64,000 nt of DNA from Methanosarcina mazei S-6 (GTDB taxonomy: Archaea; Halobacteriota; Methanosarcinia; Methanosarcinales; Methanosarcinaceae). Positions 6,986 to 25,204 of the stretch are shown here, piece after piece (position 1 is the first letter of the stretch; every line of letters starts with the position of its first letter). The stretch spans positions 1,302,001-1,366,000 of the forward strand of contig NZ_CP009512.1 in NCBI RefSeq assembly GCF_000970205.1. Direction: 5' to 3'. The position numbers were made by a program, and so were the translations under genes. The notes beneath the pieces were generated by a model. The model did not search any database. It saw only the letters and a program-made list of their open reading frames with translations, and was not told the DNA's origin.

Positions 6986-7057
6986 GGAATAAAAACGTAG
7001 AACGGGAAATTTTCAGAGGCAGGGTATATTAAATATCAAAATTACCAGTTATTCTTT

Positions 7058-7264: not shown

Positions 7265-7291
7265 ATTGCCTTCGACTTCCGGAAAAATAAA

Positions 7292-7663: not shown

Positions 7664-7976
7664 CCGGCCGCCTCCTCTTTTTTGCATCTTCAAGGAAACA
7701 GGTCACAAGGTTAAGTATTGTTGGATTTGTGCTCTTAATACTTACTATGACGATAAGGTCATAACTCTCGTTTCTTTCGTAATAGAGTTTGAACTTTTCT
7801 TGCTCCTGTTTAAGGATACCAACAGGCTGTTCTTTAAGGATTATGTTGTATATTTCATTTAAGTCTGGATGTATTTCACTTTTACGTTCCCGAATTCTTT
7901 CTTGAAAATGATATGTAGCACGTAGATTATCTATTTCAATTTCAGATAAACAATTTAATAAAGTGACTACATCCAT
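7638..7976 (-). CDS. DUF4258-like protein, probable RelE-fold toxin
   Basis: 112 residues. Visible pattern: YHFQERIRERKSEI near the start, EIYNIILKEQPVGIL in the middle, and KFKLYYERNESYDLIVIVSI followed by TILNLVTCF. This helix-strand layout, with a basic helix and a strand ending in a conserved V-T, fits the DUF4258 group (RelE/BrnT-like). It is translated with the downstream DUF2283 gene, which starts within its last codons. The toxin role is inferred from the pairing. Confidence 0.72.
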   Translation of the reverse strand: MDVVTLLNCLSEIEIDNLRATYHFQERIRERKSEIHPDLNEIYNIILKEQPVGILKQEQEKFKLYYERNESYDLIVIVSIKSTNPTILNLVTCFLEDAKKRRRPDEARIPGN

Positions 7977-8065
7977 CCAGTGACCTCACGGTTGCTTTAA
8001 AATTTAAGATGTTGTCTTATTCTATTTATAGTCTTAGATTTCTTTTGTCGAAGGTAGGTAACATA

Positions 8066-8180
8066 TTATTTCTGTAAAAATATATTTCCCGAGCCTGCTG
8101 CTCCCCTCTCCCCTCACTGCCGTTTTTTAGTTTTTGATCCTGCACCAAATCGGTCTAAGACAAAATTCCTAAATCATGAA
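8066..8180. repeat. Dispersed repeat copy C
   Basis: Shares TATTTCTGTAAAAATATATT with copy B and the downstream part (GCTGCTCCCCTCTCCCCTC, then GATCCTGCACCAAAT) with copies A and D. The region 7977-8177 otherwise holds only the promoter side of the DUF4258-like gene. Confidence 0.6.
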
Positions 8181-8390
8181 TTCAAGTATGCAGAATGGCG
8201 GAAAGTAGAACCGCGACTGGACGAAGGGGTAGACGAACTCGTAATACATATCGAGTCAATGACAGGAATCAGTGATGAAAGCATGCTTATCTACAGAGAG
8301 GTTAAGGAAATCAAAATCAGGTATAGGCAGCAGAAGGATGAGATACAGGCAAGAATTGATGAGCTGAATAAGGGAAAAGAACGGATGTAA
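8178..8390 (+). pseudogene. Orphan coding fragment
   Basis: An open frame of about 70 codons ending in TAA (8388-8390) with good codon pattern. Visible pieces are EFKYAEWRKVEPRLDEGVDE, LVIHIESMTGISDESMLIYR and a charged C-terminal helix ending in DELNKGKERM. There is no credible start codon and the frame runs back into repeat copy C, so it looks like the 3' end of a lost gene. Family not recognised. Confidence 0.5.
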
Positions 8391-8427
8391 TGGTGTGTGG
8401 TTGGCTTTTCAGGGCAAAGGCTGGAAG

Positions 8428-8609
8428 TTAAGATACCTTCAATACATTATGTAATTCTTTTGCAGTTACTTTTTCATGCGCTTGCAGGTAGCCTGTAATT
8501 TTTCTATTGCCCTTACGTTCTTTTTCTTTAAAGTTCTCTTCTTTTTTTATAGCAAATTTCCGCACTATTGATGCGAGATTTTTATTGTTAGTCTAAGCGA
8601 ATATAAAGT
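8428..8609 (-). pseudogene. DUF1016-like fragment joined to an HTH-like tail
   Basis: On the minus strand, sequence from about 8609 reads FIFA, stop, TNNKNLASIVRKF, which matches the FYLTYADNQKLAPLVREI part of the YhcG gene. The frame then continues coding-like as RKITGYLQAHEKVTAKEL and ends LHNVLKVS before TAA (8430-8428). The tail resembles a winged helix. It looks like a mosaic remnant. Confidence 0.45.
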
Positions 8610-8697
8610 CCTCAATTCCATTAATTTCCAAAATCCATACCTTTTATAATACTTGAATATTATCTTAAAGTCATAAGAATTATTTCAGGACCTGGTT

Positions 8698-10062
8698 ATG
8701 AACCCTTTTTTTAAACAAAAGGAATCTGAAACCCTTGAACTGAAAAAATCCACTGCACAATTGAAACCTGCCGTAATCTCTATAGTTGCTATACTCAACA
8801 AGCATCAGGAAGGCAAATTATACTTTGGAGTTAAGGACGATGGGACAGTTGTGGGGCAGGAAATTGGGAATGACACTTTGAGAACCATTTCTCAGGCTAT
8901 TTCAGCGTACATAGAACCAAAAGTCTATCCCGTTATCCGGCAAGTAACTTTCGAGGGAAAATCTTGCATTGAAGTCGAATTCCAGGGAAATGAAGTACCT
9001 TACTTTGCATACGGCAGAGCTTATATTCGCACTTCTGATGAGGACAAGCCCCTGAGTGTAAAAGAACTTGAGAACCTGATACTCAGGAAGAATAAGGACC
9101 AATTGAAGTGGGATAGTTCCATTTGCAGGGAAGCAAGTTTAGAAGATATCAGTGAAGAAAAAGTCAGGTCCTTTGTAAAAGAAGCTGGCAAAGAGTACAA
9201 AGGGCTTGAAAATTCCCTGAAAAAATTAAAGCTCTCAAAAGACGGAAATTTAACAAATGCCGCAGTCATTCTTTTCGGAAAGAAACCCGAGGATTTTTTC
9301 CCTAATGCAAAACTCAGGTGTGCAGTCTTTGCTACAAATGACACTTCATATATCATTGACATGCAGGACTATACAGGTGATCTCTTCTACCTGATAGGTG
9401 AGGCTGAAAAATACCTCCTTAAAAACACCCACATTGGAATGCGGCTTGAGGGCCTGAAGAGAATCGACGTCCCTGAAATCTCGAAAGAAGCAATAAGAGA
9501 AGCCATAATAAATGCCTTTTGCCACCGGGACTATTATGAATATGATTCCGTAAATGTAGCCGTATTCAAAAACCGTGTGGAAATCAGAAACAAAGGTCTC
9601 CTTTATGGAGGACTTACCATCGAACAGATCAAGACCGAAATGGTTTCTGAGCGAAGGAATGAGCTGATAGCTGAAATCTTCCATGAAATTCACTGGATTG
9701 AAAAATGGGGCAGAGGAATAAGTCTTATCCTTTCGATGGAACCCGACACTGATTTTAAAGAGGTTGGGACTCAGTTTATTGTAACGTTTAAGAGGAAGTA
9801 TTTTGAGGATAGTGAGGAAAGAGACGGAGAAAAGGTCGGAGAAAAGGTCGGAGAAAAGGTCGGAGAAACTCTAACCCAAAATCAAGAAGTGATACTCAGT
9901 TTGATAAGAGAAAATTCACGAATTTCAGCCAGGGAACTTTCCGATAGAGTAGGCATTTCTGCAAGAAAAACTGAAGAAAACATTTCTAAATTAAAGAAAA
10001 AGGGTTTACTCAAGAGAATCGGTTCGGCTAGAGGCGGTTACTGGGAAATCATTGAAAAATGA
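8698..10062 (+). CDS. AlbA_2 (Schlafen-type) putative DNA-binding regulator
   Basis: 454 residues. The N-terminal AlbA_2 domain (residues about 10-125) shows ESETLELKKSTAQLKPAVIS, YFGVKDDGTVVGQEIG and EPKVYPVI. The middle contains the divergent ATPase-like region with EAIREAIINAFCHRDY and VEIRNKGLLYGGLTIEQI. The C-terminus is a winged helix (ENSRISARELSDRVGISART-like). Linking them is a 12-bp tandem repeat (9826-9861) that encodes GEKV three times. Family members act as transcription regulators or nucleic-acid-binding proteins. An ancestor or relative is broken at 3126-3800. Starts with ATG directly before NPFFKQKE. Confidence 0.85.
   Translation: MNPFFKQKESETLELKKSTAQLKPAVISIVAILNKHQEGKLYFGVKDDGTVVGQEIGNDTLRTISQAISAYIEPKVYPVIRQVTFEGKSCIEVEFQGNEVPYFAYGRAYIRTSDEDKPLSVKELENLILRKNKDQLKWDSSICREASLEDISEEKVRSFVKEAGKEYKGLENSLKKLKLSKDGNLTNAAVILFGKKPEDFFPNAKLRCAVFATNDTSYIIDMQDYTGDLFYLIGEAEKYLLKNTHIGMRLEGLKRIDVPEISKEAIREAIINAFCHRDYYEYDSVNVAVFKNRVEIRNKGLLYGGLTIEQIKTEMVSERRNELIAEIFHEIHWIEKWGRGISLILSMEPDTDFKEVGTQFIVTFKRKYFEDSEERDGEKVGEKVGEKVGETLTQNQEVILSLIRENSRISARELSDRVGISARKTEENISKLKKKGLLKRIGSARGGYWEIIEK
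9826..9861 (+). repeat. In-frame 12-bp repeat, 3 copies
   Basis: GGAGAAAAGGTC occurs three times in a row within the AlbA_2 gene and encodes GEKV repeats in the linker before the winged helix. Copy number may vary between strains. Confidence 0.9.
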
Positions 10063-10769: not shown

Positions 10770-12116
10770 TTATGGTTTTATGAAGCTTTTAGCAAATTTT
10801 TCAAGTATTACCGAACTTGGATGCGCTGATAAGGATACTAGTTTATTTGCGAGCGCAACAGGGAACAAAGAATTATCATACATATCACATTTTAATTGTT
10901 CTAGATTCTGCAGAATTGAGTCTAGATTCTTAAAATTTTCTTTTTTTGGATCAAGAACGACAGATTCGTTTTCAACAGGTATAGTTACAACGTATAATCT
11001 TTCGTCACGGGATTTGAAAATCAATTTTCCCCCATAATAAGATGTCCTTGCATAGGGATTATCTGGATCAGCTTTGCCGGGAATGATATACTTATATATG
11101 TAGTTGTTGTTTATGAGCAAAAGTGTCCCAGATTCCATCTTATTTCCTATTTGAGCGGCGTGTTCTACAAAAGATCCACTTTTTTCAACACCTACTAAAT
11201 TAAGATCATATTTTTCCAATAAATAGTTAGACAAATCTCTCATTGGTTTATGCATATTCGCGGTGACACTAAAAAATGCTAAAGGCCCCTCTTTGATAAA
11301 TAATGTTTCTTTCAGCAGAGAGGGCTTTATCCTCAATATTGTTCTAATATAATGAATCAACAATATATGTTCAAGAAGATTGGTAACATATGCTAAAATC
11401 CCACCTGCCCCAAATTCATCATCAATTACTTCGTGAAGCCTAAAAACATCTGTTAAATATATTTTTTCGCCACAGTCATCGCAACAGAAAAGATAATTCT
11501 CTGACATATCCCTTTTGTTTAATTCAATTCTTTTATTGTTACATTTTGGATTTGGACAACTAGAGAGTGTGTAAGAAGCGATTTCCTTTTTACTGTCGTA
11601 TTCCCTATATAAAAACCATTTTAGAGTTTCAATGAAATTTTCTTTATTTTCTGTAAAAAACTCATAAAATGTATTTCTAACTGAATTGGTTAAACTTTCA
11701 TCTTTGTAAGAAATGTTTTTTGTGGGAAGAACAAATTTTAGCCGTTCTATTTTTTTGAGCCTTTCGATATCTTCGGGATCTATAAACGGTTTGTTAGAAA
11801 GAGTTTTAAGATCCTTAAGCTCAAAAATCAATGCTCCAAATTGAAAAAAGTTCAAAACACATGATGGAAACTCTCTTCTAATGAAAACCTCTGTATACCC
11901 TCCATCTATTGTGATAAAAAGGCTTATAGGGCTTTTTAAATCATAATTGACATCAGCTATAAGATTTTCTTCTCTTAGAACAATCTCATCAGAGCCGCTG
12001 GGAAGACTGCATTTATCTAAGAATTCTTTAATATCTTGGTCCCATATTATGTTAGTATGTGACGATTTACTCGCATATTCATTTGGTCTCCTTCCAGCTT
12101 GACTTGAATAACTCAT
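10770..12116 (-). CDS. NurA-domain nuclease
   Basis: 448 residues. The NurA hallmark is SLFITIDGGYTEVFIRREFP near residue 90, where the Asp of IDGG is a metal ligand; a second conserved region (ESGTLLLINNNYIYKYIIPG, then YYGGKLIFKS) follows in the C-terminal half. In between is a probable zinc ribbon, CPNPKCNNK and CCDDCGEK. NurA is a 5'-3' exonuclease and ssDNA endonuclease that works with the HerA translocase in end resection; defence-associated versions occur next to restriction genes. It starts 4 bp inside the HerA gene (ATGA overlap) and is the last gene of the operon. Confidence 0.82.
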   Translation of the reverse strand: MSYSSQAGRRPNEYASKSSHTNIIWDQDIKEFLDKCSLPSGSDEIVLREENLIADVNYDLKSPISLFITIDGGYTEVFIRREFPSCVLNFFQFGALIFELKDLKTLSNKPFIDPEDIERLKKIERLKFVLPTKNISYKDESLTNSVRNTFYEFFTENKENFIETLKWFLYREYDSKKEIASYTLSSCPNPKCNNKRIELNKRDMSENYLFCCDDCGEKIYLTDVFRLHEVIDDEFGAGGILAYVTNLLEHILLIHYIRTILRIKPSLLKETLFIKEGPLAFFSVTANMHKPMRDLSNYLLEKYDLNLVGVEKSGSFVEHAAQIGNKMESGTLLLINNNYIYKYIIPGKADPDNPYARTSYYGGKLIFKSRDERLYVVTIPVENESVVLDPKKENFKNLDSILQNLEQLKCDMYDNSLFPVALANKLVSLSAHPSSVILEKFAKSFIKP

Positions 12117-12985
12117 CTTAATTCCTCTAAATCAATTTCATCAGCCAAAAATCGATCGATGTGGACTGGTACCACAAAGGAATTCGAATAAGTCTTCATT
12201 CTGATGAATCCCTTGTCTGAGGTAGCGTTGAATAGAATTAAATTTTCGGTAAAATCTTTAAAATCATAGTATTTTTTAATTTCTTTTATCTCATCTTCAT
12301 TGTTTAAATGAGCAATAAACCAATTCTGGGTATTTTTTAATATATTTGAAGATATTGAGCTTACTTCTTGAGTTGCATAGATTAAACCTAAATTTAACTT
12401 TGCTCCTTCTTTTGCTATTCGGTTATATATATCACTCATATCTTTATCTTCTTTCTTTGGAAAGAGATTGTGAGCTTCTTCAAAGTAAAATTGTACAAAA
12501 TTATTTGGTTTATTTCTGGTGAAATTACCCATTGAGTGGTTGAATATTTTACTACATATTCTCTCAGAGTATAGCTTTTGAATTTCCGGATCTCCTTGAG
12601 ATAAGTCAATTATTATTATTTTACCTTGAGCCAATGCTTCTATTATTTCTTCTTCAAATGGTTTTTCGTTAGTGGCAGTATGTAGATCTTTCATTTTTCT
12701 TAGCTTAAGGTAACCACTGATATTTTGTCTGCCAGTTGGATTTTTTTTCTTAGTTAAAAATATTAGTAATGCTTTTAAATCTTCGTCTATCCAATCATGC
12801 CCTTTCTTTTTTTTATAATCTTCAAAAAATTCAGAATTAGATTGTTCCCAGATGGTAGTAAACCAACTAGTTGCCTCTTTAAGAGTAATTCCATTCTTTG
12901 GATTTATTTTTCCATCTTCTTGCACTAATTTGTTTAGGTTATCATTCCCCTCAAAATAAACTTTATAATTTGTTGGGGGAATCAA
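12113..12985 (-). CDS. HerA-like ATPase, C-terminal half only
   Basis: 290 residues. Visible are the Walker B region FVQFYFEEAHNLFP, the sensor segment LGLIYATQEVSSISSNIL, NWFIAHLNNEDE, and a C-terminal GFIRMKTYS, all typical of HerA/DUF87 hexameric DNA translocases. The N-terminal HAS barrel and Walker A (GxxGxGKS) are absent: the frame begins at a TTG inside the stop codon of the upstream helicase and enters directly at a mid-protein position (IPPTNYKVYFEG). Relatives have roughly 250-300 more residues upstream. Without Walker A it should not hydrolyse ATP. A deletion that also removed the end of res is the likely cause. Confidence 0.75.
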   Translation of the reverse strand: MIPPTNYKVYFEGNDNLNKLVQEDGKINPKNGITLKEATSWFTTIWEQSNSEFFEDYKKKKGHDWIDEDLKALLIFLTKKKNPTGRQNISGYLKLRKMKDLHTATNEKPFEEEIIEALAQGKIIIIDLSQGDPEIQKLYSERICSKIFNHSMGNFTRNKPNNFVQFYFEEAHNLFPKKEDKDMSDIYNRIAKEGAKLNLGLIYATQEVSSISSNILKNTQNWFIAHLNNEDEIKEIKKYYDFKDFTENLILFNATSDKGFIRMKTYSNSFVVPVHIDRFLADEIDLEELR

Positions 12986-15338
12986 TCCTGCACTGAATAA
13001 GCAACATAAGTATGCTGCTTTCTTCCTCCCATATCTGATTTTATCTGAGTAATCATGTTCGTTTTCTCTAGAAGCTGGTAGTATATTTTTGTCCAGTCTA
13101 GGAGATTAATTTCGGGGCTCCTGATTTCCCTTCTTGGTTTTTTGTACTCAGCTCTTATTTCTTCAGATTCATTACTTTCAAGGACATCAATTTTAGGATA
13201 AAGGTCAATCTCTACTGGCTCCATTTTTTCATAACTATCAAGCTCAAAAATATGGTTTTTAAATTCCCGGTTGTTATAGTCAGGTATGAGTAACTCTTCC
13301 TTTATGTAGGAATCATTAATCTGGATTTTTATTGGGATTTCAATTCTGTTGTCTACAGTCACTCCTTCATTTCTGAGGTAGTATTTGAACTGATCCATAT
13401 AGTTGGCTTCAATGCCGAAGATGTTCAGAGTTTCAAGCACAGGGATATATTCAGAAGAGCCATCTGTTGCAGTACTCCTTTTTAAGCTCATATTTTTTCC
13501 TTTGAGCCGAACACCTCTCCCGAAAAGCTGGATGATCTGCGAGCCTTCACTTTTGCCTATGTTCAAAAGACCCATGTTAGAAACGCGCCAGGAGTTCCAG
13601 CCCTCAATGAATTTCTTTGCCCCTATGAGTATATTGATGTTGGAATTGTTTGAGTTGATATCCCTGAAAAGAGAGTAGCTTATATCATCCGAATCAATGC
13701 GAAGGTTCAGGATTTTTGCGGTAGTGGGATCTTTGCATTCATTTTCTACACGATCCAAAAACTGGCCATCGCTTCCGATATTGATTACTCCAAAGTATTT
13801 TCCAGTTCCGCATTTAAGTGCGATTTCTCCTTTTGCATTTTTAATGTTCACTAGGTAGAGAGGAGCAGAGCCTACAGTGTGGAAAACCTTTTTCAGTATA
13901 TTGGTATAGATTTCTTCCGGAGATAGCCCGCTTTCACGGAGAAACTTGAGCTTCTGTTCAGGATATTGGGGAGAAAAGATGTCTATCCCTGTGGGATCTT
14001 CAAGTCCTGAATTCCCTTCAAAGATATCTTTGATGTTATTTATTACCCAGTTATCTTCGTTTTTGAGGAATTTTCCGAGGAAATTGATCACCTGTAAAAC
14101 ATCAGAAGTTTCAGTGTTTTTATTTACGCTACTCCCCAAAAAAACCCAGAGAGGTTCTGCAATATTATATTCTTGGGTTTCAGCATAGTTGTCATTGAAA
14201 ATTTTCTTTTGCTGGTAGAAGGAAAGCAAGTTCACGAGCATGAGTTTGTGCTTTATTTCATCAGAATATGCCTTGTCCTTGAGGTTCAAGATTTTGTATT
14301 TTTTTCCATATCCGTCTTCAAAGAAGAAGCGATAGGAGTAATCAAAAAGAATTGATTTGCCGTATTCATGAAAAAGTTTCTGTCCCTCTTCGCTCCCTGA
14401 AGCTACAGCCTGCCCGAAAGTAGCACTGTATTCAATTTTGAACCCATCGGAAGTGAGCTCATTCCTGAAGTAATTCCATTTCTTTCCACTACTACCTTTG
14501 TGTCCTTCATCCACAAAGACCAGGTTCTTTGTCCCGAATTTTTCAATATCTATGGTGACTCCAGAGCCCTTTTTTTCATCGGTAAGTTTATGGATGTCAA
14601 CCACTTTTATGGTGTTCTCATCTGCAAATTTGGAAAAATCCCCAAACTCTGTGTTTCCAAAAAGCATGCAAGGAATACGGCTTTTCTTCATCTCTTCGAT
14701 GTGCTGGAAGGAAAGATTTTCGTTTGGGGTGATGAGCAGAATGTTGTCAAATTTAATCCGGTATTTTCCCCTGTTATGTTTTATGAACTGGAGATAATTG
14801 AGATGAACGAGGAATGTTTTCCCAGACCCAGTTGCCATCCAGAATGCAAGTTTTCTGAGATCATTTCTTGAATGAATGAATCCACTATTCTCTTCTTCAA
14901 TTGGACTTGTATGCTCTTTAATGAATCTATACTCAAATTCTGTTAGTTCATTGATAAAATTAACATGATCAGAGAAATATCTATCTAGATCTCCCCGAAA
15001 AGCACAGATAGGTATTGGAAGTACTTGAGTTTTATAGGAGTTTCCCTAGACTGGTTGATATGTTCCATATACTCTCTGATGTTGCTGTCATAGTCTTCGA
15101 GCATGGGCTTAAGTCTTGGTTCCAGTTTCTTCAGGGAATAAAGAGCATGGAACATGTAGCTTCTCCCTTCTTCATCAAACCCTTCTTCTGTCTGTTTCAG
15201 GATCTCTTTCAGTTCTTTAAAATTTTTCATCCCGAAGAGATTGAGCATATATGAGTTCAGAACGAGGTGGTCGTCAAGCAAAGCCTTCCTTTTACCACTG
15301 CTATTCTTTGCCCCGCTCTTCCTTCTACTCACCGTCAT
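12982..15338 (-). pseudogene. Res-like superfamily 2 helicase, frameshifted and truncated
   Basis: Type III Res-like DEAD/DEAH helicase in two frames. The first piece (15338-14985, 117 codons) ends KYFQYLSVLFGEI then TAG. The matching continuation LDRYFSDHVNFINELTEFEY, then RNDLRKLAFWMATGSGKT, is in another frame that runs to 12982. Helicase motifs are present: Walker A ATGSGKT, DEGH in LVFVDEGHKGSS, motif VI in IIQLFGRGVRLKG. The normal C-terminus is missing: after YYQLLEKTNMITQIKSDMGG the protein ends in an unrelated 15-residue tail. An ATG inside the Walker A region (14838) is not a credible start. The gene begins just after mod stops. Confidence 0.8.
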
Positions 15339-15341
15339 ACC

Positions 15342-18300
15342 TCATGCCCCCATAAGCCTAGAAAAAGTTGGCTCAATCGGGAATGCACCTTCCACAGCAA
15401 AGTCCGAGTTTACATAAACCTTTGAATCAGGTTCCTTTTCCGAGAGAACGGTACTTTCAATAAAATTTTTATCCTCTTTGAGATCAAGTCCTACGGTGCA
15501 CCGCCATACCACAATAATATTTTCCTTTCTCTCGTTCTCCCCCTGAACCTTAAACCCATAAATCACACGGTAATAGGTGCCATTATTTTCGAAAGTTTTA
15601 ACTTTCTTCACATGGATTCCGAGAAGGTAGTTGAAAGTCTCTACAAGGTCTACAACCTGTTCCCGAAGTTCATTCTGATCAGAAACTTTGAGAGTATAGT
15701 TAAAAGGGTTTTTAAGCTTTGTTATGTTTAACCTGCAGGGACTATATGCAGTTTCAAAGTCGAGCATGTAATGTAACATGTAGTCCGAAAAACCATTAAG
15801 TCTTCTCTGAAATGAGCTTTTTTCTCCAAATTCTATGTTATTTAAGGTATCCTCGTACTGTTCAAGTGTAAGGTATTTGAAAATATGACTTTGCCCGTCT
15901 TTTGATTGGGGTCTTTCATCTTTCCAATCTTTTGAGTATATTATTTTTTTGATACGAGGTTTTAGGACTGAGTCAAAATAGTCACCCATCTCTATAAGTA
16001 TATATTTTCGGTTTCCACATTCTTCTTTGTTTAAGTTGAGAATTGCATGGGCAGTTGTACCAGAACCGGCAAAGAAATCAAGAATTATTGATGCTTCATC
16101 TTGAGATCCTAAATTTATTAAAAATTCCAGAAGTTTTGGAGGTTTTGGATATAAATCAATATCTTCATTTATAACATTTTTTAATGTGGACGTTCCTTCT
16201 TTTGTATTAGTTAATTTTGATATTACTGTTTTTGGATTTATTTTACTTTTTTCTTTTTCATAACATAGGATACCATTTTTATTGAAGTAAAATTTTGTAA
16301 CCTTTTGTCCTTTTGTATCGTAAGTCTCTTTTCCTTCAAGCCAATTCAGTATTTGTTTTTTCATTGCCCATCCAGCTTTGATTATTACTGGCTTTTTTAA
16401 TTTACCATTTTCAAATTCCATTTTTTCACTAATTATATATTCCTTTTCAGAGCCACCAATGCATCCAGAAAACTCATCTTTATCTCCCTCGAATTCTATT
16501 CCTGCCGGAAATAGAATTTCACTTGCTGGATTGGCTTTTGATATTTTTTTCAGTGCACCATGTGTTATAGTACCGCCGTCTGTATAATCAAAATTATCTA
16601 ACATTTTTTTATTTTTTGCATATGAATATATATATTCGTGCGATCTCGTAAAATGCCCAGCAGTTGTACCTGTACCAAGGTCCCATATTAGGTCTGCGAG
16701 ATAATTATCACTGCCAAAATATTCATTAAAAACTTGTTTTAAGTTATGAGCCTCGTTGCTATCAATACTACAAAAGAAAATTCCGTCTAATGTTAGAATT
16801 CCTTTTGAAGATTGAATTGTTTGTGATAGTAAAGATAACCAACAACTGTGCATATATCGATCTTTATATGGAAACTTATCCTTTCCAGTATTGTAAGGCG
16901 GATCAATATAAATACATTTTATCTGTTCAGTGTACTTGTTTAATAATAAATTCAATGCCTGCCAATTTTCACTATTTATCATCAGACCTCCAGTTGCTTC
17001 ATCGAGGTCATTGAAGTTTGAAAGGAGGCAGTCTTTGAAGGATTGGTCAAAGAACTTTGTATCAATTACAAGGTAAGGATTTGCTTTGAGATCTATGATC
17101 TGGGATTCAAGATCATAGAGACTTTTCTGATTCTTTATTCTGATACCATAGAGTTTTTCCCATTCTTCAAGCTGGGCTTTATTTTGCAGAATGTTGGGAT
17201 AGATAAATTCAGGTACATTGTCTATAGTCATGCAGTATTCAGATGTTAGGACAAACTTTTTTTTCTCAAAGAGCTTTTTTTGGAACTCTTCTATCTGGGA
17301 GAGGAAGTCAATAATCTTTAGGCAGATTGTTTTAAAGACCTTTACTCTTCCTACATAACGCTCCATCTTTGCTTCGTTTCCTGATTCGAGAATGTTGTCA
17401 AGGTCGAAGATTTCATTTTTGATGTAGAAATCAAGTTCATTGGTCAGGAAGCGCTTGAGGTTCTTGTGGATAAAGTAATCAGTATTATTTTCTCGCACAT
17501 AGCGGTTAAGGTGTTTTCGCAGGAAATTCTTTTTTCCGTCTATAGGTCTTGTAAGTACCTTTTTCAGGTCTGGATCTTTTATGATAGCAAGAATTTTGGT
17601 TTCTATTTCATCAAGAATTTTGTCCTGCACATTCTTAGTACCAAACTCCTTCTCTTCTTCCTTTGTCAATCCTCGGTATTCAAAGAGGATGGTAAGTTCT
17701 TTATTCTCAGGATAATAAAAAATAGGTTCCAGAACTTCCGTCTCATCTTCAGTTTCAATCTTGCTTTTTCTTTTCAGTATGAAGAACCGGTTTTCATCTT
17801 TGTTGCTGTTCTTTTCTATAGGGGTGTTTGAAATCCTGAAATGTGTGGTGTAAGTCTTCCCGTCATCCTTGAAAACATAGTTTTGGAAGTTCTTTCCTGT
17901 TTTTATGAAGTACTGACCCTTGTTTGCCCAGTGAAGCATGACCTCTTCACCGTTATAGGGGATGGCGTATTTCTGCTGTTTTGAATAGCGCTGGAGCGAT
18001 ATGAAATCTCCTTTGTCGTAGTAGCGTGAGAAAAAGTGATAAATGTGAGAGAAAATCTCGGCTTTGTGCTGTTCAAAGGTTGTTTCATCGTCTCCAAATT
18101 CTGAATCCCAAGTTTTTCTCTCTATTTCATTGCTTTGTAAATACTCTTCTGAAGTTTCAATTCCGTATGCAGGGAAATCTCCGAGTAAAGGATTAATTAA
18201 AGGGTTTATGATGGTCGTACCTGCAATCTCCGTAGCTGAAACTCCTAAATTGTTCAAAGTTGCTGCTTGAACCCATTTCTTTGCTAAAGAAGGAGAGGCC

Positions 18301-18497
18301 AGAGCTCTTTTTTCGGATGCTCTGTACTTTTCAAGTGCCTCTTCAACTGCGTTGATCAAATCTTTATTTATGAACTTTTCAATCTCACTGCGCTTCTGGT
18401 TCATTATGCGATAAATTCCAAAATCCAGATCTGTCGAATCGAACTGGAAAAGCGTATGTAAGAGTTCCTGGAGTTTTTGGGTGTAATCATCTATCAA
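15342..18497 (-). CDS. Beta-class DNA adenine methyltransferase (type III Mod-like)
   Basis: 1,051 residues, larger than classical type III Mod because of a 500-residue N-terminal region (FQFDSTDLDFGIYRIMNQKR near the start), which probably recognises DNA or partner subunits. The catalytic motif IV, IYIDPPYNTG (D532), precedes the AdoMet motif I, LDFFAGSGTTAHA (F809), the order of beta-class N6-adenine methyltransferases. Between them lies the target recognition region. It would modify host DNA and mark it as self, with the following Res-like helicase acting on unmodified DNA. The start is TTG 18497, since an in-frame TGA lies just upstream; no clear ribosome binding site. The gene looks intact. 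Confidence 0.9.
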   Translation of the reverse strand: MIDDYTQKLQELLHTLFQFDSTDLDFGIYRIMNQKRSEIEKFINKDLINAVEEALEKYRASEKRALASPSLAKKWVQAATLNNLGVSATEIAGTTIINPLINPLLGDFPAYGIETSEEYLQSNEIERKTWDSEFGDDETTFEQHKAEIFSHIYHFFSRYYDKGDFISLQRYSKQQKYAIPYNGEEVMLHWANKGQYFIKTGKNFQNYVFKDDGKTYTTHFRISNTPIEKNSNKDENRFFILKRKSKIETEDETEVLEPIFYYPENKELTILFEYRGLTKEEEKEFGTKNVQDKILDEIETKILAIIKDPDLKKVLTRPIDGKKNFLRKHLNRYVRENNTDYFIHKNLKRFLTNELDFYIKNEIFDLDNILESGNEAKMERYVGRVKVFKTICLKIIDFLSQIEEFQKKLFEKKKFVLTSEYCMTIDNVPEFIYPNILQNKAQLEEWEKLYGIRIKNQKSLYDLESQIIDLKANPYLVIDTKFFDQSFKDCLLSNFNDLDEATGGLMINSENWQALNLLLNKYTEQIKCIYIDPPYNTGKDKFPYKDRYMHSCWLSLLSQTIQSSKGILTLDGIFFCSIDSNEAHNLKQVFNEYFGSDNYLADLIWDLGTGTTAGHFTRSHEYIYSYAKNKKMLDNFDYTDGGTITHGALKKISKANPASEILFPAGIEFEGDKDEFSGCIGGSEKEYIISEKMEFENGKLKKPVIIKAGWAMKKQILNWLEGKETYDTKGQKVTKFYFNKNGILCYEKEKSKINPKTVISKLTNTKEGTSTLKNVINEDIDLYPKPPKLLEFLINLGSQDEASIILDFFAGSGTTAHAILNLNKEECGNRKYILIEMGDYFDSVLKPRIKKIIYSKDWKDERPQSKDGQSHIFKYLTLEQYEDTLNNIEFGEKSSFQRRLNGFSDYMLHYMLDFETAYSPCRLNITKLKNPFNYTLKVSDQNELREQVVDLVETFNYLLGIHVKKVKTFENNGTYYRVIYGFKVQGENERKENIIVVWRCTVGLDLKEDKNFIESTVLSEKEPDSKVYVNSDFAVEGAFPIEPTFSRLMGA

Positions 18498-18846
18498 TTT
18501 TCAAACACTGTCCATTTATTTTTGATATGTTATAAATTATTGCTTCCACTTAATAAATTTTTTGAGCAATAATTGTGTTTATTTTTATGACTTGGCCAGT
18601 CTGTCTGAAAATAATGTCACAAAACCTTAAAAAATCAATAAACAAAAAAATGGATCTCAATGCCTATTGAAGTCGTTTTTTTTTCAACGAGTAAGTCCTA
18701 TAAGATATTTTGGTAGTTCCCATAAATGAAGAGATGCAATAGTGTGCACAAATGTACTGGATATGTAGGAAAATTAAAATGGGATGCCAAAAAAGTTTAG
18801 AATATTAAAAAGCCTTAGAAAGAAATTGAGTAGTAGGTAAACCAAC
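18498..18846. other. Spacer between mod and nmad3
   Basis: AT-rich, no gene supported. It may hold a promoter for mod, since the distance is too large for simple translational coupling. Confidence 0.4.
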
Positions 18847-19356
18847 TTATTCTACAAAAAGCAAGTTTTTCAATTTATCCACATATTCTTCCTTTACTTC
18901 CCTAGGTCTGCTCCTCTGAATAGAGCCTTCGAATCCAAAAATTGGCCTCATTTTTTTAGAAACTACGTGAAGATTTCTACCTATAGAATCACTGCCTTTC
19001 TCACTGATCTTTATGGCTTTATCAAGTAATTTACTCCCGTTTTTTTGGCCCATAATTATGACCAGATCATCAAGATGCTCTTCTCCTAAAATTTCCATTC
19101 TCTTTATATGAGCATTATTTTTGCATCTCTTGCAATACTTCTCTCTTTCTTCAGTGCTCAAGAGGTTAAAATCGATAACTTCTTTAACTGTGAAATATCC
19201 AATAATATATAATGCTGCTTCTTCCTTTTTTTGATTGTAAGGTTTTAGTCCTGCGTAAAAAACCAATAAGTCATTTTTTTGCAATCTCAGGAGAGAACTT
19301 CTTTTACTTGTCGGATCTCCATAAGTGTAGGTTTTAAACTCAGGGTCAAAATGCAT
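18847..19356 (-). pseudogene. Nmad3-like protein, C-terminal part (split by IS)
   Basis: 169 codons beginning at the Met that follows the target-site duplication: HFDPEFKTYTYGDPTSKRSS, then LQKNDLLVFYAGLKPY and YIIGYFTVKEVID. This fits the putative nucleotide-modification-associated domain 3 (Nmad3). The N-terminal 67 codons lie beyond the insertion element at 21081-21283. Removing the element plus one copy of the target duplication joins ...LKDVG to MHFDPEF... in frame, giving about 236 residues. The exact activity of Nmad3 is not established; it is predicted from genomic context with modified DNA. Confidence 0.75.
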
Positions 19357-19362
19357 CCCAAC
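19355..19362. repeat. Left target-site duplication of the IS1634-type element
   Basis: ATCCCAAC, repeated at 21081-21088. The last C may belong to the inverted repeat, so the duplication is 7 or 8 bp. Confidence 0.8.
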
Positions 19363-21080
19363 CTACTCTCGGCAGGTAAACATATAGATTAATATTATTA
19401 ATTTTATATCTCTTTCCTGGTCTTCCCATGTCAGAGAAAAACAGTAGTAGAAGAGTTGAATCTTCCTTAAAACGTACAAGGTTCTTAGGTCACCTTGGTC
19501 TCATGGCTGGAGTTTTCAGAGAACTTGAAGTTGACAAACTGATCGATGAGAAACTTCCCAAGGAAAGGGATCACAATGTTCCTCACTCAGTTTGCATCCT
19601 TGCCATGGTACTCAATGGTCTTGGTTTCATAGGGCAACGTCTGTACCTTTTTCCTGATTTTTTCAAAAACATTTCTACTGAAAGGCTTTTCGGAGACAAT
19701 GTAACAAGAGAAGACCTGAATCAATATGCTATCGGAGAGACTCTTGATAGAATCGTAAAATATGGCCCTACAAAACTGTTTACGGAAATTGCTCTTCACA
19801 TTATGGCTCGTCTACCTATTCCTGTTCACTGTTTACACGCTGACACTACAAGTGTCAGCGTTTATGGGGATTATGAAGACGAAGAAACTGAGTCTATTGA
19901 TATTACTTTTGGAATTCCCAAAAACGGAAGATGGGACCTCAAACAATTTGTACTGAGCTTGATTGTTAATCAGCATGGCATACCTCTTTTCATGAACACC
20001 CATTCAGGAAATGCTTCCGACAAAAACACAATTCTGGAAGCTATCAACTCTCTTAAATCAGTTCTAAGGCCTGAAAGCAAAGTGTACTATGTCGCTGATA
20101 GTTCCTTTTACACAGACAATAATATCAAGAACATAGGAACGTCATTCTGGATCAGTCGCGTTCCTGCAACAATTACCGAGGCAAAGGAACTGTTAGCTGC
20201 AAATCTGAACCTGAAAACGCTAAAAAGCGACGAAAGATACTCATTTTATCAAACCTTTGTGGAATATGGTGGAGTTAAACAAAAGTGGGTTTTGCTGCTT
20301 TCTCACAAGATGAAAGAGAAAAAAGAGCAAACTCTCAGAACAAAGCTTGACAAAGAGTTTGAAAAAGCAGAGAAGTCTTTTAAAAAGCTGAAAGGAGAGG
20401 ACTTCTTCTGTGAAGATGATGCATTAAAAGCCGCAGAGAAATGGATTCAAGATTTCCCCTCAATTGTGTTTGAAAATGTTGATTTGAAAGCCATTAAAAA
20501 ACGTGAATCGGGTAAAAGAGGCAGACCTTCAAAAGATGAGAAATTAAAGACTTATTACAGGATTGATGGCAGTTTAAAGACTAATGAAGCTTTTGTTTTG
20601 AAAGAAATGGAGAAAATGGGACTTTTCATTCTTGCAAGTAATGATATCAGTATTTCTCCTGAAGATATGCTGAAGTATTACAAAGGACAGGACAATGTAG
20701 AAAAAGGATTCAGGTTCTTGAAAAGTGATACGTTTAGCATATCGAAAGTTTACCTCAAGAAAAAATCCCGAATTGAAGCACTGACTATGATAATGGTTCT
20801 CTGCTTAATGATTTATTCAATTGCAGAATGGAAATTAAGAACAAAGTTAGAAGAAGAAAATGAAACGGTTCCAGATCAAAAAGGGAAGCCAACAAAAAGA
20901 CCTACAATGAGATGGATATTTTTCAATTTCCAGGGAATTACAGAACTTAGGATTCAGAAACAAGGAGAAATAGAGTCCGAAATATTGAATATGGAGGATA
21001 TTCACTGGAAGATACTGAGGCTCATGGGAGAAAAATATGAAAATATCTATCTCTAATTACGTCAACCTGCCGAATGTAGG
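19362..21080 (+). mobile_element. IS1634-type insertion sequence
   Basis: About 1,719 bp with imperfect terminal inverted repeats: the left end reads CCTACTCTCGGCAGGT and the right end, read inward, CCTACATTCGGCAGGT (2 mismatches in 16). It is flanked by the 7-8 bp duplication ATCCCAAC and carries one transposase gene. It lies inside nmad3, in the opposite orientation. Its transposase is intact and the target duplication is perfect, so the insertion is probably recent. Confidence 0.88.
19428..21056 (+). CDS. IS1634-family transposase
   Basis: 542 residues, a full-length DDE transposase of the IS1634 (IS4-like) group. N-terminal DUF4277-type region: VESSLKRTRFLGHLGLMAGV, then HNVPHSVCILAMVLNGLGFI. 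The first catalytic Asp lies in PVHCLHADTTSVSVYG, the second in VYYVADSSFYTDNN, and the Glu in the late segment YYKGQDNVEKGFRFLKSD, the Y(2)R-like region. The start is ATG 19428. No frameshift or stop; likely active. Confidence 0.92.
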   Translation: MSEKNSSRRVESSLKRTRFLGHLGLMAGVFRELEVDKLIDEKLPKERDHNVPHSVCILAMVLNGLGFIGQRLYLFPDFFKNISTERLFGDNVTREDLNQYAIGETLDRIVKYGPTKLFTEIALHIMARLPIPVHCLHADTTSVSVYGDYEDEETESIDITFGIPKNGRWDLKQFVLSLIVNQHGIPLFMNTHSGNASDKNTILEAINSLKSVLRPESKVYYVADSSFYTDNNIKNIGTSFWISRVPATITEAKELLAANLNLKTLKSDERYSFYQTFVEYGGVKQKWVLLLSHKMKEKKEQTLRTKLDKEFEKAEKSFKKLKGEDFFCEDDALKAAEKWIQDFPSIVFENVDLKAIKKRESGKRGRPSKDEKLKTYYRIDGSLKTNEAFVLKEMEKMGLFILASNDISISPEDMLKYYKGQDNVEKGFRFLKSDTFSISKVYLKKKSRIEALTMIMVLCLMIYSIAEWKLRTKLEEENETVPDQKGKPTKRPTMRWIFFNFQGITELRIQKQGEIESEILNMEDIHWKILRLMGEKYENIYL

Positions 21081-21283
21081 ATCCCAACGTCTTTGAGGCT
21101 TTTAAAAACGTAAGTAGACAATGGTAAACCTTTTCTACCGATTGTGTTTCCGTAAGTTTTATCTTCTTCTGACAGATAGCCTTCAGGAATAGGGATGTAC
21201 TCAAAAGAACCGTCTTTAAAAATAGGTCCAAGTGTTCCCCCGCTTCCTGTATCAATACCAACACGTAACAACATTGCTTTCAT
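21081..21283 (-). pseudogene. Nmad3-like protein, N-terminal part (split by IS)
   Basis: 67 codons from ATG 21283, which has a GGAGGGAA ribosome binding site. The product MKAMLLRVGIDTGSGGTLGP, then FEYIPIPEGYLSEEDKTYGN, ends LSTYVFKSLKDVG at the insertion point. The beginning (VRVGID... and VPIPE) is characteristic of Nmad3. The rest of the gene is at 18847-19356. It follows the helicase-nuclease gene by 75 bp on the same strand. Confidence 0.75.
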
Positions 21284-21358
21284 ACCATTCCCTCCAAACA
21301 CTTATACAATTTTAACTTTTGATTTCATTATGCATAAACATAAAATTTGATAAATGTC

Positions 21359-24094
21359 TCATCTTTTTTTCCATCTACATATCTTTGTAAGTTCACACTT
21401 ATTACAAAATTCCCCTGTACATGGTTTGAAGCTACGGTTTTTTATTCCCTCTATATGTCTTTCTACTTGTTTTTTTGTTTCTTCAAGTCTGGAATCATCT
21501 ACTTCCACATATGCGACTTTTGCGTCTGAGAGATATGCTACAGAACCCTTAGTCACATTTTCCCCAAGAATTTTCATTCCTATTGAGTACATCTGGATTT
21601 GCATGGCAGATTCAGCTTCTGTGATAACGCTATCTGATGTTTTATAGTCACGAACTTCCAGCTGATCTCCATCATGAATTATAACGTCAATTTTTCCAGT
21701 AATTGTGGCTTTTTGGAGTGGAAACTCTATCCTTGCTTCAACTTCCTGTATATTATGCATATCCGTTTCATGCTTTTTCACAAAACTTATGAGCTTTCTC
21801 TTAGCTGCTTCCTTTATTTTTTCTCCCTGTATCTTATTTACAAAGGGCATATAGAAATTCTCATCGACTGCTGTTGAAATTGCACTTATGGGGCTGTACC
21901 CTTCATTTTTAATCAGATCTGCTGCTTGCTGAAGGCAGAAATGTAGAGTATTTCCATAACCGATTCTCTCTTTGAATCCCGGCTCGTAACCCCAGATTTG
22001 GTTTAATCTGTAAAAGTAAGGGCATTTCCGGTATAGGATAATCTCGGAGGGGGTGTACGTAAGTATCTCATCTGAAATTTTGGAACTTGTTAGGTCATGC
22101 AAAGGTAGTTCGTCTTTTGCAGATAATTTCGTAGTCTTTGAATCCCGAAGCCCTTCACTGATAAAAGTGCTTTCTCCTGAGTTTCTGCCGTTTAGCGTTC
22201 CAAAGTGGCTAACAACAAGCACATCCTTTGCCCTCGTGAGAGCAACATAGAAAAGTTTCTTTTCACTCTCTATATCTCCCTCATATTTCTCGGCATCAAA
22301 CATATTCCTTGGGATCATCCATGTTTGCTCTCTTCCTGCCATACTCGATGGAAAACGCCTAGCGTTCATAGCTGGGACAAAGACCAGTGGCCATTCAAGT
22401 CCCTTTGCTTGGTGTACTGTCATCAACTGAACAGCATCTACTCCTCGGATGTCGTCTCCCGGCTGCTCTTCATAAGAGCCTGATGCATAACTATTCATAT
22501 ACCAGCAGAGATTCTTCAAATCTCTTTCCCAGTTTCTCTGCCTGCCACCAAGCATATTTGCAGATTCAAAATCAGTTAAAAGAGAGCTAAACCTTCCCAA
22601 GTTTGCCATTATCACAGCATGATTTGGATCTTCTGAATCAAGGTTAAGGTAATTTAACAGGACGAGAAGTTCATGGTACACTTCTGTAAAGCTTTCGTAT
22701 TTTGAATCAAGCGTATTTTTTTTCCAGTTTTCGAGCTTTTTAATTACTTCGCTATGTAATTTACAGCTAGGAACTCCATCATTCCAGCTTTCAAGTGCAG
22801 AATAGAGGAGCTCTTCTCCTTCCTCTTTATTTTCTCGATCCCATTGGCTTTCGTACCAGAATCCTTTATCGTAAAGCCAGGCGAAAAGTTTGCCCATAGT
22901 TTGAATTTCAGGCCTGCGGAAAAGACCAACTTTACCTCCTACAATAAAAGGTATGTTTCTTTCCCTGAATATATCAATGAATGGAGGCGCTGATGTATTT
23001 ACACTGCGAAGTAGTATTCCAATATCACCATATGAACACTTTCCAGCATCTACATGTTTCTCTATCTGATCCGCAATCCATTTTGCTTCATGGATGTTAT
23101 CCGAAAGTTTTGCAATATATACTGCACCCTCTTCTTTTCTCACAGGATCAAGATGGTCATATTCATCTTCAAAATAATCTGAGAACTGATTTGAAACTTC
23201 TATAATTTGCCTGCCACTCCTTCTATTTTCATTAATAGAAATAGTTTCGGCATCTATGTGCTTTACTGCAAAATCTTCAAAACACTTCTCATCTGATCCC
23301 CGCCACTGGTAAATAGTTTGCCTGGGATCTCCCACAATAAAAATCTCGGAATTCAGTCCTATTAACTGTATAAGTTTTTCCTGAGCCCTATTTATATCCT
23401 GGTATTCGTCAACAATCAGATATTTTACATCTGAGAGTACGTTTTGCTTCTCTTGTAAATTTGTTAGGGCTAGATTGATCATTCTATTAAATGTCAACCT
23501 CTTATGGGAATCTAAGATTTCTTCATATTTTTTAAAACACTTATAGAATTCTGGAGCTTTCTTTTTTAGATTGTTTTCTGGTATTAGCTCCCCATATACC
23601 ACGTTAAGATTTTTAAGAAATGTCCGGCAGTTCTGGGTGTAATTTCCATTTTTACCAAACCCAAGCTCCCATCCCACACGCATTAGAAAAGCAGTTTCTT
23701 GATTTTCGTCAAGAACTCCATAGTCTCCAAACTTAAAATGGTTCTCTAGTAAAAAAGAGCAGTAACCATGTATTGTGCCAATGTACATTTCCCCCAGTTT
23801 GGCACATATCTCTTCACCACCAAGTTGGCGGACACGATCATAAACTCGACTTTTCATCCCCTGCGCTGCTTTTTCCGTAAATGTGAAAGCAACAATAGAT
23901 GCTGGTTTAACATTTTCGTAAAGAAGCAAACACACAATTTTTCTTGTGAGTGTTTCAGTTTTCCCGGCGCCAGCTCCAGCAATAATCCTGATATGTCTTC
24001 TGTCTGATAGAACGGCTTTTTTCTGACTATCAGATAGTTCTTTCGGTTCTTTAATTATCAATTCCAGAAATCTTTTATCACCCATTTTTTTCAC
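21359..24094 (-). CDS. UvrD/Rep-type helicase with C-terminal PD-(D/E)XK nuclease
   Basis: 911 residues. Superfamily 1 helicase motifs: Q-motif region LSDSQKKAVL, Walker A IIAGAGAGKTETL (residues 38-50), Walker B LIVDEYQDIN, motif III VGDPRQTIYQWRGS, motif V VQLMTVHQAKGLEWPLVFV, motif VI LFYVALTRAK. The C-terminal third is an AddB/RecB-like nuclease: YTPSEIILYRKCPYFYRLNQ, GKIDVIIHDGDQLEVRDYKT with the catalytic D and ExK-like DYK, and a Cys cluster (CTGEFCNKCELTKICRW) that with the earlier Cys would bind an iron-sulfur cluster. It is probably a DNA-end resection or invader-degrading enzyme. It heads the defence-like operon. Start GTG 24094 or ATG 24085. Confidence 0.88.
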   Translation of the reverse strand: MKKMGDKRFLELIIKEPKELSDSQKKAVLSDRRHIRIIAGAGAGKTETLTRKIVCLLLYENVKPASIVAFTFTEKAAQGMKSRVYDRVRQLGGEEICAKLGEMYIGTIHGYCSFLLENHFKFGDYGVLDENQETAFLMRVGWELGFGKNGNYTQNCRTFLKNLNVVYGELIPENNLKKKAPEFYKCFKKYEEILDSHKRLTFNRMINLALTNLQEKQNVLSDVKYLIVDEYQDINRAQEKLIQLIGLNSEIFIVGDPRQTIYQWRGSDEKCFEDFAVKHIDAETISINENRRSGRQIIEVSNQFSDYFEDEYDHLDPVRKEEGAVYIAKLSDNIHEAKWIADQIEKHVDAGKCSYGDIGILLRSVNTSAPPFIDIFRERNIPFIVGGKVGLFRRPEIQTMGKLFAWLYDKGFWYESQWDRENKEEGEELLYSALESWNDGVPSCKLHSEVIKKLENWKKNTLDSKYESFTEVYHELLVLLNYLNLDSEDPNHAVIMANLGRFSSLLTDFESANMLGGRQRNWERDLKNLCWYMNSYASGSYEEQPGDDIRGVDAVQLMTVHQAKGLEWPLVFVPAMNARRFPSSMAGREQTWMIPRNMFDAEKYEGDIESEKKLFYVALTRAKDVLVVSHFGTLNGRNSGESTFISEGLRDSKTTKLSAKDELPLHDLTSSKISDEILTYTPSEIILYRKCPYFYRLNQIWGYEPGFKERIGYGNTLHFCLQQAADLIKNEGYSPISAISTAVDENFYMPFVNKIQGEKIKEAAKRKLISFVKKHETDMHNIQEVEARIEFPLQKATITGKIDVIIHDGDQLEVRDYKTSDSVITEAESAMQIQMYSIGMKILGENVTKGSVAYLSDAKVAYVEVDDSRLEETKKQVERHIEGIKNRSFKPCTGEFCNKCELTKICRWKKR

Positions 24095-24548: not shown

Positions 24549-24896
24549 TCAATTGCTAAAACTCAACTCTTCAATCAGTTTTTCAAGCTCTCTCTCAACC
24601 ATGGGAACTCTGTTTTTAGCGGTATCCCAGACAAGATCATAATCGACATTAAAATAGGCGTGTATCAAGCGATCCCTCATACCTGCCATACCTTTCCAAT
24701 CAAGGTTTGGGGCTCGTGACTTTATATCTGCGGGGATGGCTTTCGATGCCTCTCCCAGTATCAGTAACTGATGAGCAACTGCACTCCTGGTTTTCTCGTC
24801 CTTTAAAAAAGTCTCTTTTTCCATACCTTGCAAGAAATCCTTTATATTTCTGGAAGAATCGAGCATTTCAGAAAGGTATAGAAGCGGAGATCTCAT
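24549..24896 (-). CDS. hepT: HepT-type (DUF86) HEPN ribonuclease toxin
   Basis: 115 residues. The HEPN catalytic motif RX4HXY is present in GMRDRLIHAYFNVDYDLVWD. HepT is a ribonuclease toxin kept inactive by its MNT partner, which in characterised systems AMPylates the Tyr of this motif. The ATG overlaps the stop of mntA by 4 bp. Gene order (mntA then hepT) is standard. The pair sits between two GYD genes on the other strand. Confidence 0.9.
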   Translation of the reverse strand: MRSPLLYLSEMLDSSRNIKDFLQGMEKETFLKDEKTRSAVAHQLLILGEASKAIPADIKSRAPNLDWKGMAGMRDRLIHAYFNVDYDLVWDTAKNRVPMVERELEKLIEELSFSN

Positions 24897-25204
24897 ACCG
24901 GCACCAGTTCTCTTAGCACGTCATCCTTCATCATCGGGTGAAGAGCTCTCTCCGAAACAACATCCACTGAGATTCCAAAAAGATCTTCGAGGTAATCTCC
25001 AAGCCCCACAAGCTCAAAAAGGGATGCTCCTTCTCCAAATCTTACCAGGACATCAATATCACTTCCCTCTTTTTCCTCTCCACGTGCATATGAACCAAAA
25101 ATTCCAATGATCTCAGCTTTGAATTTTTCTTTTATTTCATCCTTTCTTTCCAGGATAAGAAGCCGGATCTGATTGACATCAATGTGTATTTCTTTATCTT
25201 CCAT
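24893..25204 (-). CDS. mntA: MntA-type nucleotidyltransferase antitoxin
   Basis: 103 residues with the minimal nucleotidyltransferase signature GIFGSYARGE (G37-S38) followed by GSDIDVLVRF (D49, D51). The later SLFELVGLGDYLEDLFGISV is typical of MNT antitoxins. It neutralises the downstream HepT, probably by adenylylating it. Start ATG 25204; upstream 25205-25440 is AT-rich promoter DNA without other genes. Confidence 0.9.
   Translation of the reverse strand: MEDKEIHIDVNQIRLLILERKDEIKEKFKAEIIGIFGSYARGEEKEGSDIDVLVRFGEGASLFELVGLGDYLEDLFGISVDVVSERALHPMMKDDVLRELVPV

Follow-up and report, generated by a model that had tools for sequence, protein, structure and literature searches.

We analysed a window of 64,000 nucleotides from Methanosarcina mazei S-6 (contig NZ_CP009512.1, positions 1,302,001 to 1,366,000 of a single-contig genome of 4.14 Mb), in which an island of genes related to DNA restriction occupies positions 10770-24094 of the minus strand. 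An earlier reading, made from the letters of the window without database searches (the sequence-only reading), had described six genes running on one strand with no other genes between them, and had proposed that they form one self/non-self system without a match to a named type. All six components are found on the minus strand at 10770-24094, each with profile support. In order of transcription they are a UvrD-type helicase fused to a PD-(D/E)XK nuclease (24094-21359), Nmad3, the methyltransferase Mod (18497-15342), the helicase Res, the motor protein HerA and the nuclease NurA (12116-10770). The stretch is not free of other genes, since a transposase gene is encoded on the plus strand inside Nmad3. 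We consider it likely that the whole is what decay has left of a composite restriction island, in which two modules, each with its own history, were joined by one guest gene: module A comprises the UvrD-nuclease, Mod and Res, module B comprises HerA, NurA and, in relatives, a DNA methyltransferase of its own, and Nmad3 is the guest.

The decay is visible at several places. Nmad3, which was correctly named by the sequence-only reading (PF18754 is matched), is divided by a 1719-bp insertion sequence (IS) of the IS1634 family (19362-21080, plus strand) into an interrupted N-terminal part (21081-21283, minus strand; PF18754 positions 1-57) and a C-terminal part (18847-19354, minus strand; PF18754 positions 69-199). 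The IS encodes an IS1634-family transposase (19428-21056, plus strand; NF033559, 396 bits), has similar inverted ends (CCTAC..TCGGCAGGT) and is bordered by 7-bp target duplications, ATCCCAA, at 19355-19361 and 21081-21087; once it is removed and the empty site is reconstructed, Nmad3 becomes one open frame. The genome holds eight near-full copies of this IS, four at ~100% identity (the copy in Nmad3 among them) and four at 91%, and the four near-identical copies suggest recent movement. A frame break at about 14985-14990 divides Res into a 117-amino-acid (aa) N-terminal fragment (14985-15338, minus strand; PDLC03654 positions 20-127) and a 687-aa frame (13066-14988, minus strand) that contains the helicase part; alignment of both to intact Res proteins shows that the C-terminal ~320 residues, including the nuclease motif, are missing. 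HerA (12113-13066, minus strand) is reduced to its C-terminal half, without Walker A: it is 73% identical to residues ~344-669 of an intact 669-aa homologue (locus L012), and the first ~345 residues of intact relatives are absent. Res homology ends and HerA homology begins at about 13066-13072, within an apparent deletion junction at 13060-13090 (minus strand). This Res/HerA junction also lies where relatives carry a methyltransferase beside HerA-NurA, and none is found there in the window. Comparison with relatives thus suggests a deletion that would have taken the C-terminus of Res, the N-terminus of HerA and probably the module B methyltransferase, with the frame break in Res and the IS in Nmad3 adding to the decay. 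Undamaged reading frames and motifs remain in the UvrD-nuclease and Mod only. Given that the island is broken at several places, at most these two proteins are likely to work in the window; restriction by Res or by HerA-NurA has almost certainly been lost, and Mod may persist as an orphan methyltransferase. An intact, uninterrupted six-gene operon is ruled out by the IS in Nmad3, the frame break in Res and the truncations of Res and HerA, and an intact second copy of the island elsewhere in the genome by the single genome-wide match of Mod. A scan for sigma-70 promoters gave 23 sites versus 17.7 in shuffled sequences; archaea use other promoters.

Module A is a type III restriction-modification (R-M) pair with a helper helicase-nuclease, arranged as a compact operon. 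The first protein (21359-24094, minus strand; 911 aa, intact open reading frame (ORF)) joins a UvrD-type superfamily 1 helicase to a PD-(D/E)XK nuclease, which is C-terminal and bears four iron-sulphur-type cysteines. These parts had been noticed from the sequence, and they are borne out by matches to UvrD_N, UvrD_C and PDDEXK_1, by Cas4-like cysteines, and by the invariance of D803, E813 and K818 of the RecB-like nuclease and of C691, C897, C900 and C906 in all seven aligned sequences, the window included. The description of Mod (15342-18497, minus strand; 1051 aa, intact; PDLC03646, E 2.5e-167) as a beta-class methyltransferase with an N-terminal part of ~500 residues holds as well: it matches N6_N4_Mtase, MTase_III and solved type III Mod proteins, motif IV precedes motif I with the recognition region between them, as in the beta order, and its DPP and FAGSG-type motifs are invariant in the six sequences aligned. 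Among three congeneric archaea (G332, G307 and G226), the Mod proteins share 82-86% identity to either side of residues ~638-770, while these residues themselves find no match; such divergence between conserved flanks points to exchange of the target-recognition region. The assignment of the next protein to Res-like helicases stands (ResIII and REase_III are matched), though the window copy is frame-broken and truncated, and the C-terminal nuclease site of a type III Res is found in relatives only. There, Walker A, DE(G/A)H and FGRG(V/I)R motifs are present in 18 of 18 aligned sequences, and the C-terminal motif (Y/F/H)PDF..(D/E)P(K/H)G in 17 of 17 full-length ones. We rejected the idea that HerA-NurA replaces a dead Res nuclease, as the Res motif varies (DPKG, EPHG, DPHG) regardless of HerA-NurA.

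For the distribution of module A, we examined 20 Mod loci in the window's phylum (the best 7 of 15 family genomes, 10 from a sample of 294 genomes of the phylum, and 3 from one other family). Mod is led by a UvrD gene in 12 of them, of which nine are close (the window and eight others, 58-82% identical to the window or G332 query) and three distant (25-26%). Res comes after Mod wherever the contig extends far enough, and the gaps within UvrD-Mod-Res, measured at four loci on starts chosen mechanically, range from -31 to +9 bp. The trio also occurs on a plasmid of the Thermotogota (Athalassotoga). In the Anaerolineae phylum, no UvrD match was found beside Mod in the six stretches inspected (from 6 of 12 genomes with Mod), several of which are cut by contig ends. 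In one locus (L057:14390-14821, genome G270) an EVE gene lies directly 3' of Mod-Res, with no HerA-NurA match in that stretch, and one IMG/VR contig (L097, 4575-8926; 3 of 34 viral-collection UvrD loci were compared) carries a UvrD-nuclease homologue (28%) followed by a match to a Mod-like methyltransferase. Nmad3 is a guest in the gap between UvrD and Mod. It is present in 52 of the 294 genomes and co-occurs with Mod in three, on different contigs except in the window; we therefore rejected it as a core part, since it is linked to Mod in no other genome of the sample. Its C-terminal part has no match in phage records. In G226 (L053:11217-14159) the same gap is filled by a 981-aa NB-ARC/TPR (STAND-like) gene, which makes the gap look like a guest slot.

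In module B, NurA is present at full length (10770-12116, minus strand; 448 aa; PF09376, 24.6 bits with a cut-off of 21). The HerA fragment is matched by PADLOC HerA models, and it scores 18.8 bits with Pfam DUF87, under the cut-off of 23.2. A HerA/NurA pair had been read from the sequence; the families are as named, but HerA is half a protein, and NurA carries E276, within the motif F(I)xDGPL, at a position that is D in all 16 relatives aligned. The closest intact relatives are found in two other Methanosarcina (L012 and L013), as a unit of a 322-aa methyltransferase, HerA and NurA without module A (HerA 669 aa and NurA 445 aa in L012). This unit occupies the same chromosomal slot as the window's island, with rpS3ae and topoisomerase genes on one side and, on the other, a PIN-like gene (named by eye) along with more shared genes. 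The L013 copy (Methanosarcina ERenArc_MAG2, 4195-9448) is decaying too, with near-identical transposase genes before the methyltransferase and inside HerA, and a frame break in NurA.

Across the relatives, HerA-NurA is kept while the methyltransferase beside it belongs to at least three groups. The same unit, its methyltransferase at 58-64% identity, recurs in Anaerolineae (L014), Thiothrix (L016), L077 and L078, and in L076 with one of 40% identity that is placed divergently. In more distant units, a Dam-like D12 enzyme accompanies HerA-NurA in L011, L051, L053, L054, L079, L080, L082, L092, L093 and L094 (in L053 and L054 it was read from a DNA alignment over that stretch), and another N6_N4-type enzyme in L063, L064, L066, L083 and L084, with a larger, Mod-like one in L081. 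Altogether, a methyltransferase adjoins HerA-NurA in 23 of the 26 relatives with readable flanks, being two genes away in L081; these are 26 of 29 loci, the window and the fragments L015 and L085 having been left out. As a control, we took 130 of the 131 other ORFs that are 200 aa or longer and lie no more than 8 kb from HerA-NurA at 19 loci, and found no DNA-methyltransferase family among the 25 most frequent Pfam families, the lowest of these ranks having two members. Beyond this 8-kb range, L063 has an annotated N-6 DNA methylase. The same 130 ORFs include five phage integrases, five PADLOC mad3 matches and four AriA matches, indicating that HerA-NurA loci sit in mobile, defence-rich DNA. 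Three IMG/VR contigs (L092, L093 and L094) carry such a NurA beside a D12 methyltransferase, with HerA also in L092; module B may travel on mobile DNA, or these contigs may be host flanks. In Calothrix PCC 7103 (L015, 7673-10711), another decayed locus, a UvrD-like ORF lies near half a NurA and is 33-36% identical to the HerA-NurA-linked UvrD proteins of L079 and L081.

Both proteins of module B find their best solved relative in TdpAB (structures 8wet and 8wfd), which likewise pairs a HerA-like motor with a NurA-like nuclease. With a HerA profile, TdpA was the best solved relative (E 3e-33), followed by HerA (4e-15), and single-sequence searches returned TdpA at E 3.6e-20 and 4.7e-23. PDB sequence searches with NurA gave nothing significant, and the match came from comparison of folds: the predicted NurA model (mean predicted local distance difference test score 83.3, built with 13 sequences) aligns to chain G of TdpAB (8wfd; TdpB by our reading of the entry) with Z 21.5 over 315 residues, at a root-mean-square deviation of 3.7 and 15% identity, with a second Z value of 19.4, compared with 14.9 for the repair NurA of Sulfolobus and 12.8 for that of T. 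kodakarensis. TdpAB is a motor-nuclease from which self DNA is protected by the phosphorothioate marks that TdpC makes. In the Tdp principle, a mark in the DNA backbone stalls a translocating nuclease. Module B differs in that the marking gene beside HerA-NurA encodes a DNA methyltransferase (no search was made for TdpC itself), and in that the same run includes a UvrD helicase gene in the window and in 5 of the 26 relatives. The HerA motor is Tdp-like in the relatives, the window retaining its C-terminal half. That HerA-NurA stays conserved while the methyltransferase groups beside it are exchanged is an argument for the mark, and not a particular enzyme, as the thing that matters. By analogy, base methylation would replace the sulphur mark in module B, which is possibly the methylation counterpart of the phosphorothioate-guarded Tdp system.

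The combination of a helicase-nuclease, a methyltransferase and HerA-NurA is recurrent. In the three congeneric archaea, UvrD, Mod, Res, an EVE gene, a D12 methyltransferase, HerA and NurA are co-directional; G332 and G307 have these seven genes mostly overlapping, with gaps of at most 144 bp, and G226 has the same run with the STAND gene added between UvrD and Mod, with gaps of up to 151 bp. At the boundary between the modules in G332, Res and EVE overlap by 4 bp, EVE and D12 are 144 bp apart, and D12 and HerA overlap by 4 bp. Downstream of NurA in this genome (L069:16-4890) is a 1624-aa protein with a GHKL/sacsin-type ATPase-like N-terminus (domain named by eye). As the three islands lie in syntenic DNA, they represent one event. 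Their HerA and NurA are ~30% and ~25% identical, respectively, to the window's clade, whose HerA reaches other phyla at 53-67%; since the HerA-NurA clades differ, the pairing of modules A and B arose at least twice. In addition, at two loci of the Anaerolineae phylum the run continues after HerA-NurA with a different UvrD, which overlaps NurA by 4 bp each time, and a separate PD-(D/E)XK gene. Each module also occurs alone. Of the 12 loci with UvrD-Mod-Res in the window's phylum, eight lack HerA-NurA and lie in genomes without a matching HerA or NurA, and HerA-NurA with its own methyltransferase lacks module A in the two other Methanosarcina, Anaerolineae, Thiothrix and others. The sequence-only reading had taken independent occurrence of the neighbours in related genomes as a sign against a single system. 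They are mostly apart, yet in the 294-genome sample, with HerA in 6 genomes and Mod in 13, four of the six HerA genomes have both, adjacent in every case. Within the window's family, this NurA is present in 4 of 111 genomes, and Mod accompanies it in the window's genome only. Among 400 genomes of the Anaerolineae phylum, 11 have HerA (E ≤ 1e-40), 12 have Mod (E ≤ 1e-80) and none has both; with 0.33 expected by chance, this zero is not informative by itself. We read the partnership of the two modules as recurrent but optional. Of the single system proposed earlier, the recurrence of helicase-nuclease, methyltransferase and HerA-NurA is upheld, and the unit of six and the membership of Nmad3 are not.

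What the modules do can be proposed from family, motifs and homology. Mod would methylate a sequence set by its exchangeable target-recognition region; Res, a superfamily 2 (SF2) motor with a C-terminal PD-(D/E)XK-like site, would cut unmethylated DNA; and the UvrD-nuclease would then unwind and degrade it from the ends. The module B methyltransferase, if it resembles the marking arm of Tdp, would mark self DNA, and a hexameric, TdpA-like HerA would thread DNA into a TdpB-like NurA dimer, which would degrade it unless the marks stall the motor. We tentatively suggest that methyltransferase-HerA-NurA is a widespread R-M family guarded by methylation, with HerA-NurA as its restriction arm and with methyltransferase groups that are swapped, and that in some archaea HerA-NurA has been joined in a single operon to a UvrD-nuclease-armed type III system, giving two tiers, one that cuts and one that degrades. 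An ordinary defence island, in which unrelated systems have piled up in a hot spot without a functional link, is a reasonable alternative, if short of probable. The same slot in the two other Methanosarcina holds, of the two modules, only methyltransferase-HerA-NurA, the UvrD/Mod gap is filled by Nmad3 or a STAND gene in different genomes, and a nucleotidyltransferase-like gene lies at the edge, all of which is what such an island would look like; the tight spacing over the module boundary of G332 and the recurrence in distant lineages are less easily explained by it. We think it rather unlikely that the genes form one integrated two-tier system, intact in relatives and broken in the window, in which Mod and Res open unmethylated DNA that the UvrD-nuclease and HerA-NurA degrade processively. 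Such a system would explain why the seven-gene run of G332 and G307, also present with the STAND gene in G226, was kept while the recognition region of Mod changed, why a joining with another HerA-NurA clade is seen in the window, and why HerA-NurA accompanies another UvrD and a separate PD-(D/E)XK gene at two further loci. Yet in most of the genomes seen either module is complete in the absence of the other, the three congeners count once, Mod is present in one of the four NurA genomes of the window's family and together with HerA in none of the 400 Anaerolineae-phylum genomes (where chance alone would give only 0.33), and of the genomes of L016 and L014, the former has a Mod-like match ~220 kb from HerA and the latter has none. 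That HerA-NurA duplicates the housekeeping pair for DNA-end repair and is unrelated to restriction appears very improbable. Parts of PMC5715905 present archaeal HerA-NurA as classically a repair pair, and there are weak matches to repair HerA models; however, the NCBIfam repair-HerA model gives 34 bits against a cut-off of 970, both proteins are closer to TdpAB than to repair HerA and NurA, the distribution is patchy (HerA in 6 of 294 and 11 of 400 genomes), a methyltransferase is the partner in 23 of 26 relatives, and the pair is found on plasmids and viral-collection contigs.

Several observations weigh against the reading of the island as two separate modules with HerA-NurA as a methylation-guarded restriction arm. 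The overlap of HerA and Mod in the 294 genomes exceeds the expectation for two unlinked modules (hypergeometric P = 3.3e-5, or 0.007 with the congeners counted as one), although defence genes cluster anyway and these P values ignore such clustering. No adjacent methyltransferase was found in 3 of the 26 module B loci, which are on cyanobacterial plasmids and have a helix-turn-helix (HTH) gene instead. The 26 loci are related sequences and not independent draws, three of them being one inherited island, and the contigs of L093 and L094 start at NurA, with HerA outside the view. The putative loss of the methyltransferase from the window is deduced from relatives, with no remnant found there, and a sequencing error could explain the frame break in Res. 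Restriction by any member of either module is a prediction from family, motifs and homology.

As in the sequence-only reading, the whole was matched to no named type: the best PADLOC matches are to Mod/Res, to HerA in general and to a GajB-like helicase. A known classifier type for the whole locus was rejected on these grounds and because the NCBIfam HerA models remain far below their cut-offs. Type III R-M systems cleave in an ATP-dependent manner between head-to-head asymmetric sites, with methylation of one strand. Module A shares with EcoP15I-like systems a beta-class Mod with a target-recognition insert, adjacent to an SF2 Res with a C-terminal PD-(D/E)XK-like site (PADLOC MTase_III/REase_III), and differs in the size of Mod (~1000-1060 aa with the ~500-residue N-terminal part) and in the AddB/RecB-like UvrD-nuclease gene that leads the operon in 12 of the 20 archaeal loci. 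Gabija is similar insofar as the UvrD half of the window protein matches GajB models (E 1.3e-57), but the window's UvrD is fused to a PD-(D/E)XK nuclease, and no GajA (OLD ATPase/TOPRIM) was among the matches listed for 10 window proteins. The canonical HerA-NurA of Thermococcus and Sulfolobus has the same two folds and the same gene pair, and its partner is Mre11-Rad50; module B is instead partnered by a DNA methyltransferase, and the TdpAB nuclease is a closer match to its NurA model than is any repair NurA listed. BREX-related, Hma and HerA/FtsK-capture systems, as described in sections of PMC12839542 and PMC10853773, also form composite islands of methyltransferase, helicase, HerA-type motor and accessory effectors including EVE; NurA and UvrD do not appear in the main texts of the two papers. 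A Pfam scan of 10 window proteins at E ≤ 0.01 gave no match to the DUF499, BrxC or PglZ families. In the literature on HerA or NurA with methyltransferases, anti-phage activity, defence islands, EVE or restriction, titles and abstract openings named no methyltransferase-HerA-NurA unit, and in that on UvrD with type III restriction they named no such combination, subscription papers falling mostly outside both sets.

The role of archaeal HerA-NurA is disputed between end resection in repair and antiviral degradation, according to portions of PMC12977600, in which T. kodakarensis HerA-NurA degrades DNA exonucleolytically and a possible antiviral role is suggested by the authors. The conserved pairing of HerA-NurA with exchangeable DNA methyltransferases in archaea, bacteria, plasmids and viral-collection contigs makes protection by methylation testable. 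If methylation does protect DNA from HerA-NurA, the Tdp principle would cover the ordinary methylation of bases as well, and there would be a bench system transferable to laboratory strains. The window itself is a relic and an example of how such islands decay, while what its relatives indicate is a TdpAB-like restriction unit, possibly guarded by methylation.

The neighbouring genes add some minor observations. A protein with Schlafen/AlbA_2, HATPase_c_4 and HTH domains (8698-10062, plus strand) flanks the island, and a nucleotidyltransferase/HEPN-like gene pair, recognised by eye, lies at its edge (24549-25204, minus strand). A nucleotidyltransferase 36% identical to this edge gene adjoins the island in L012.

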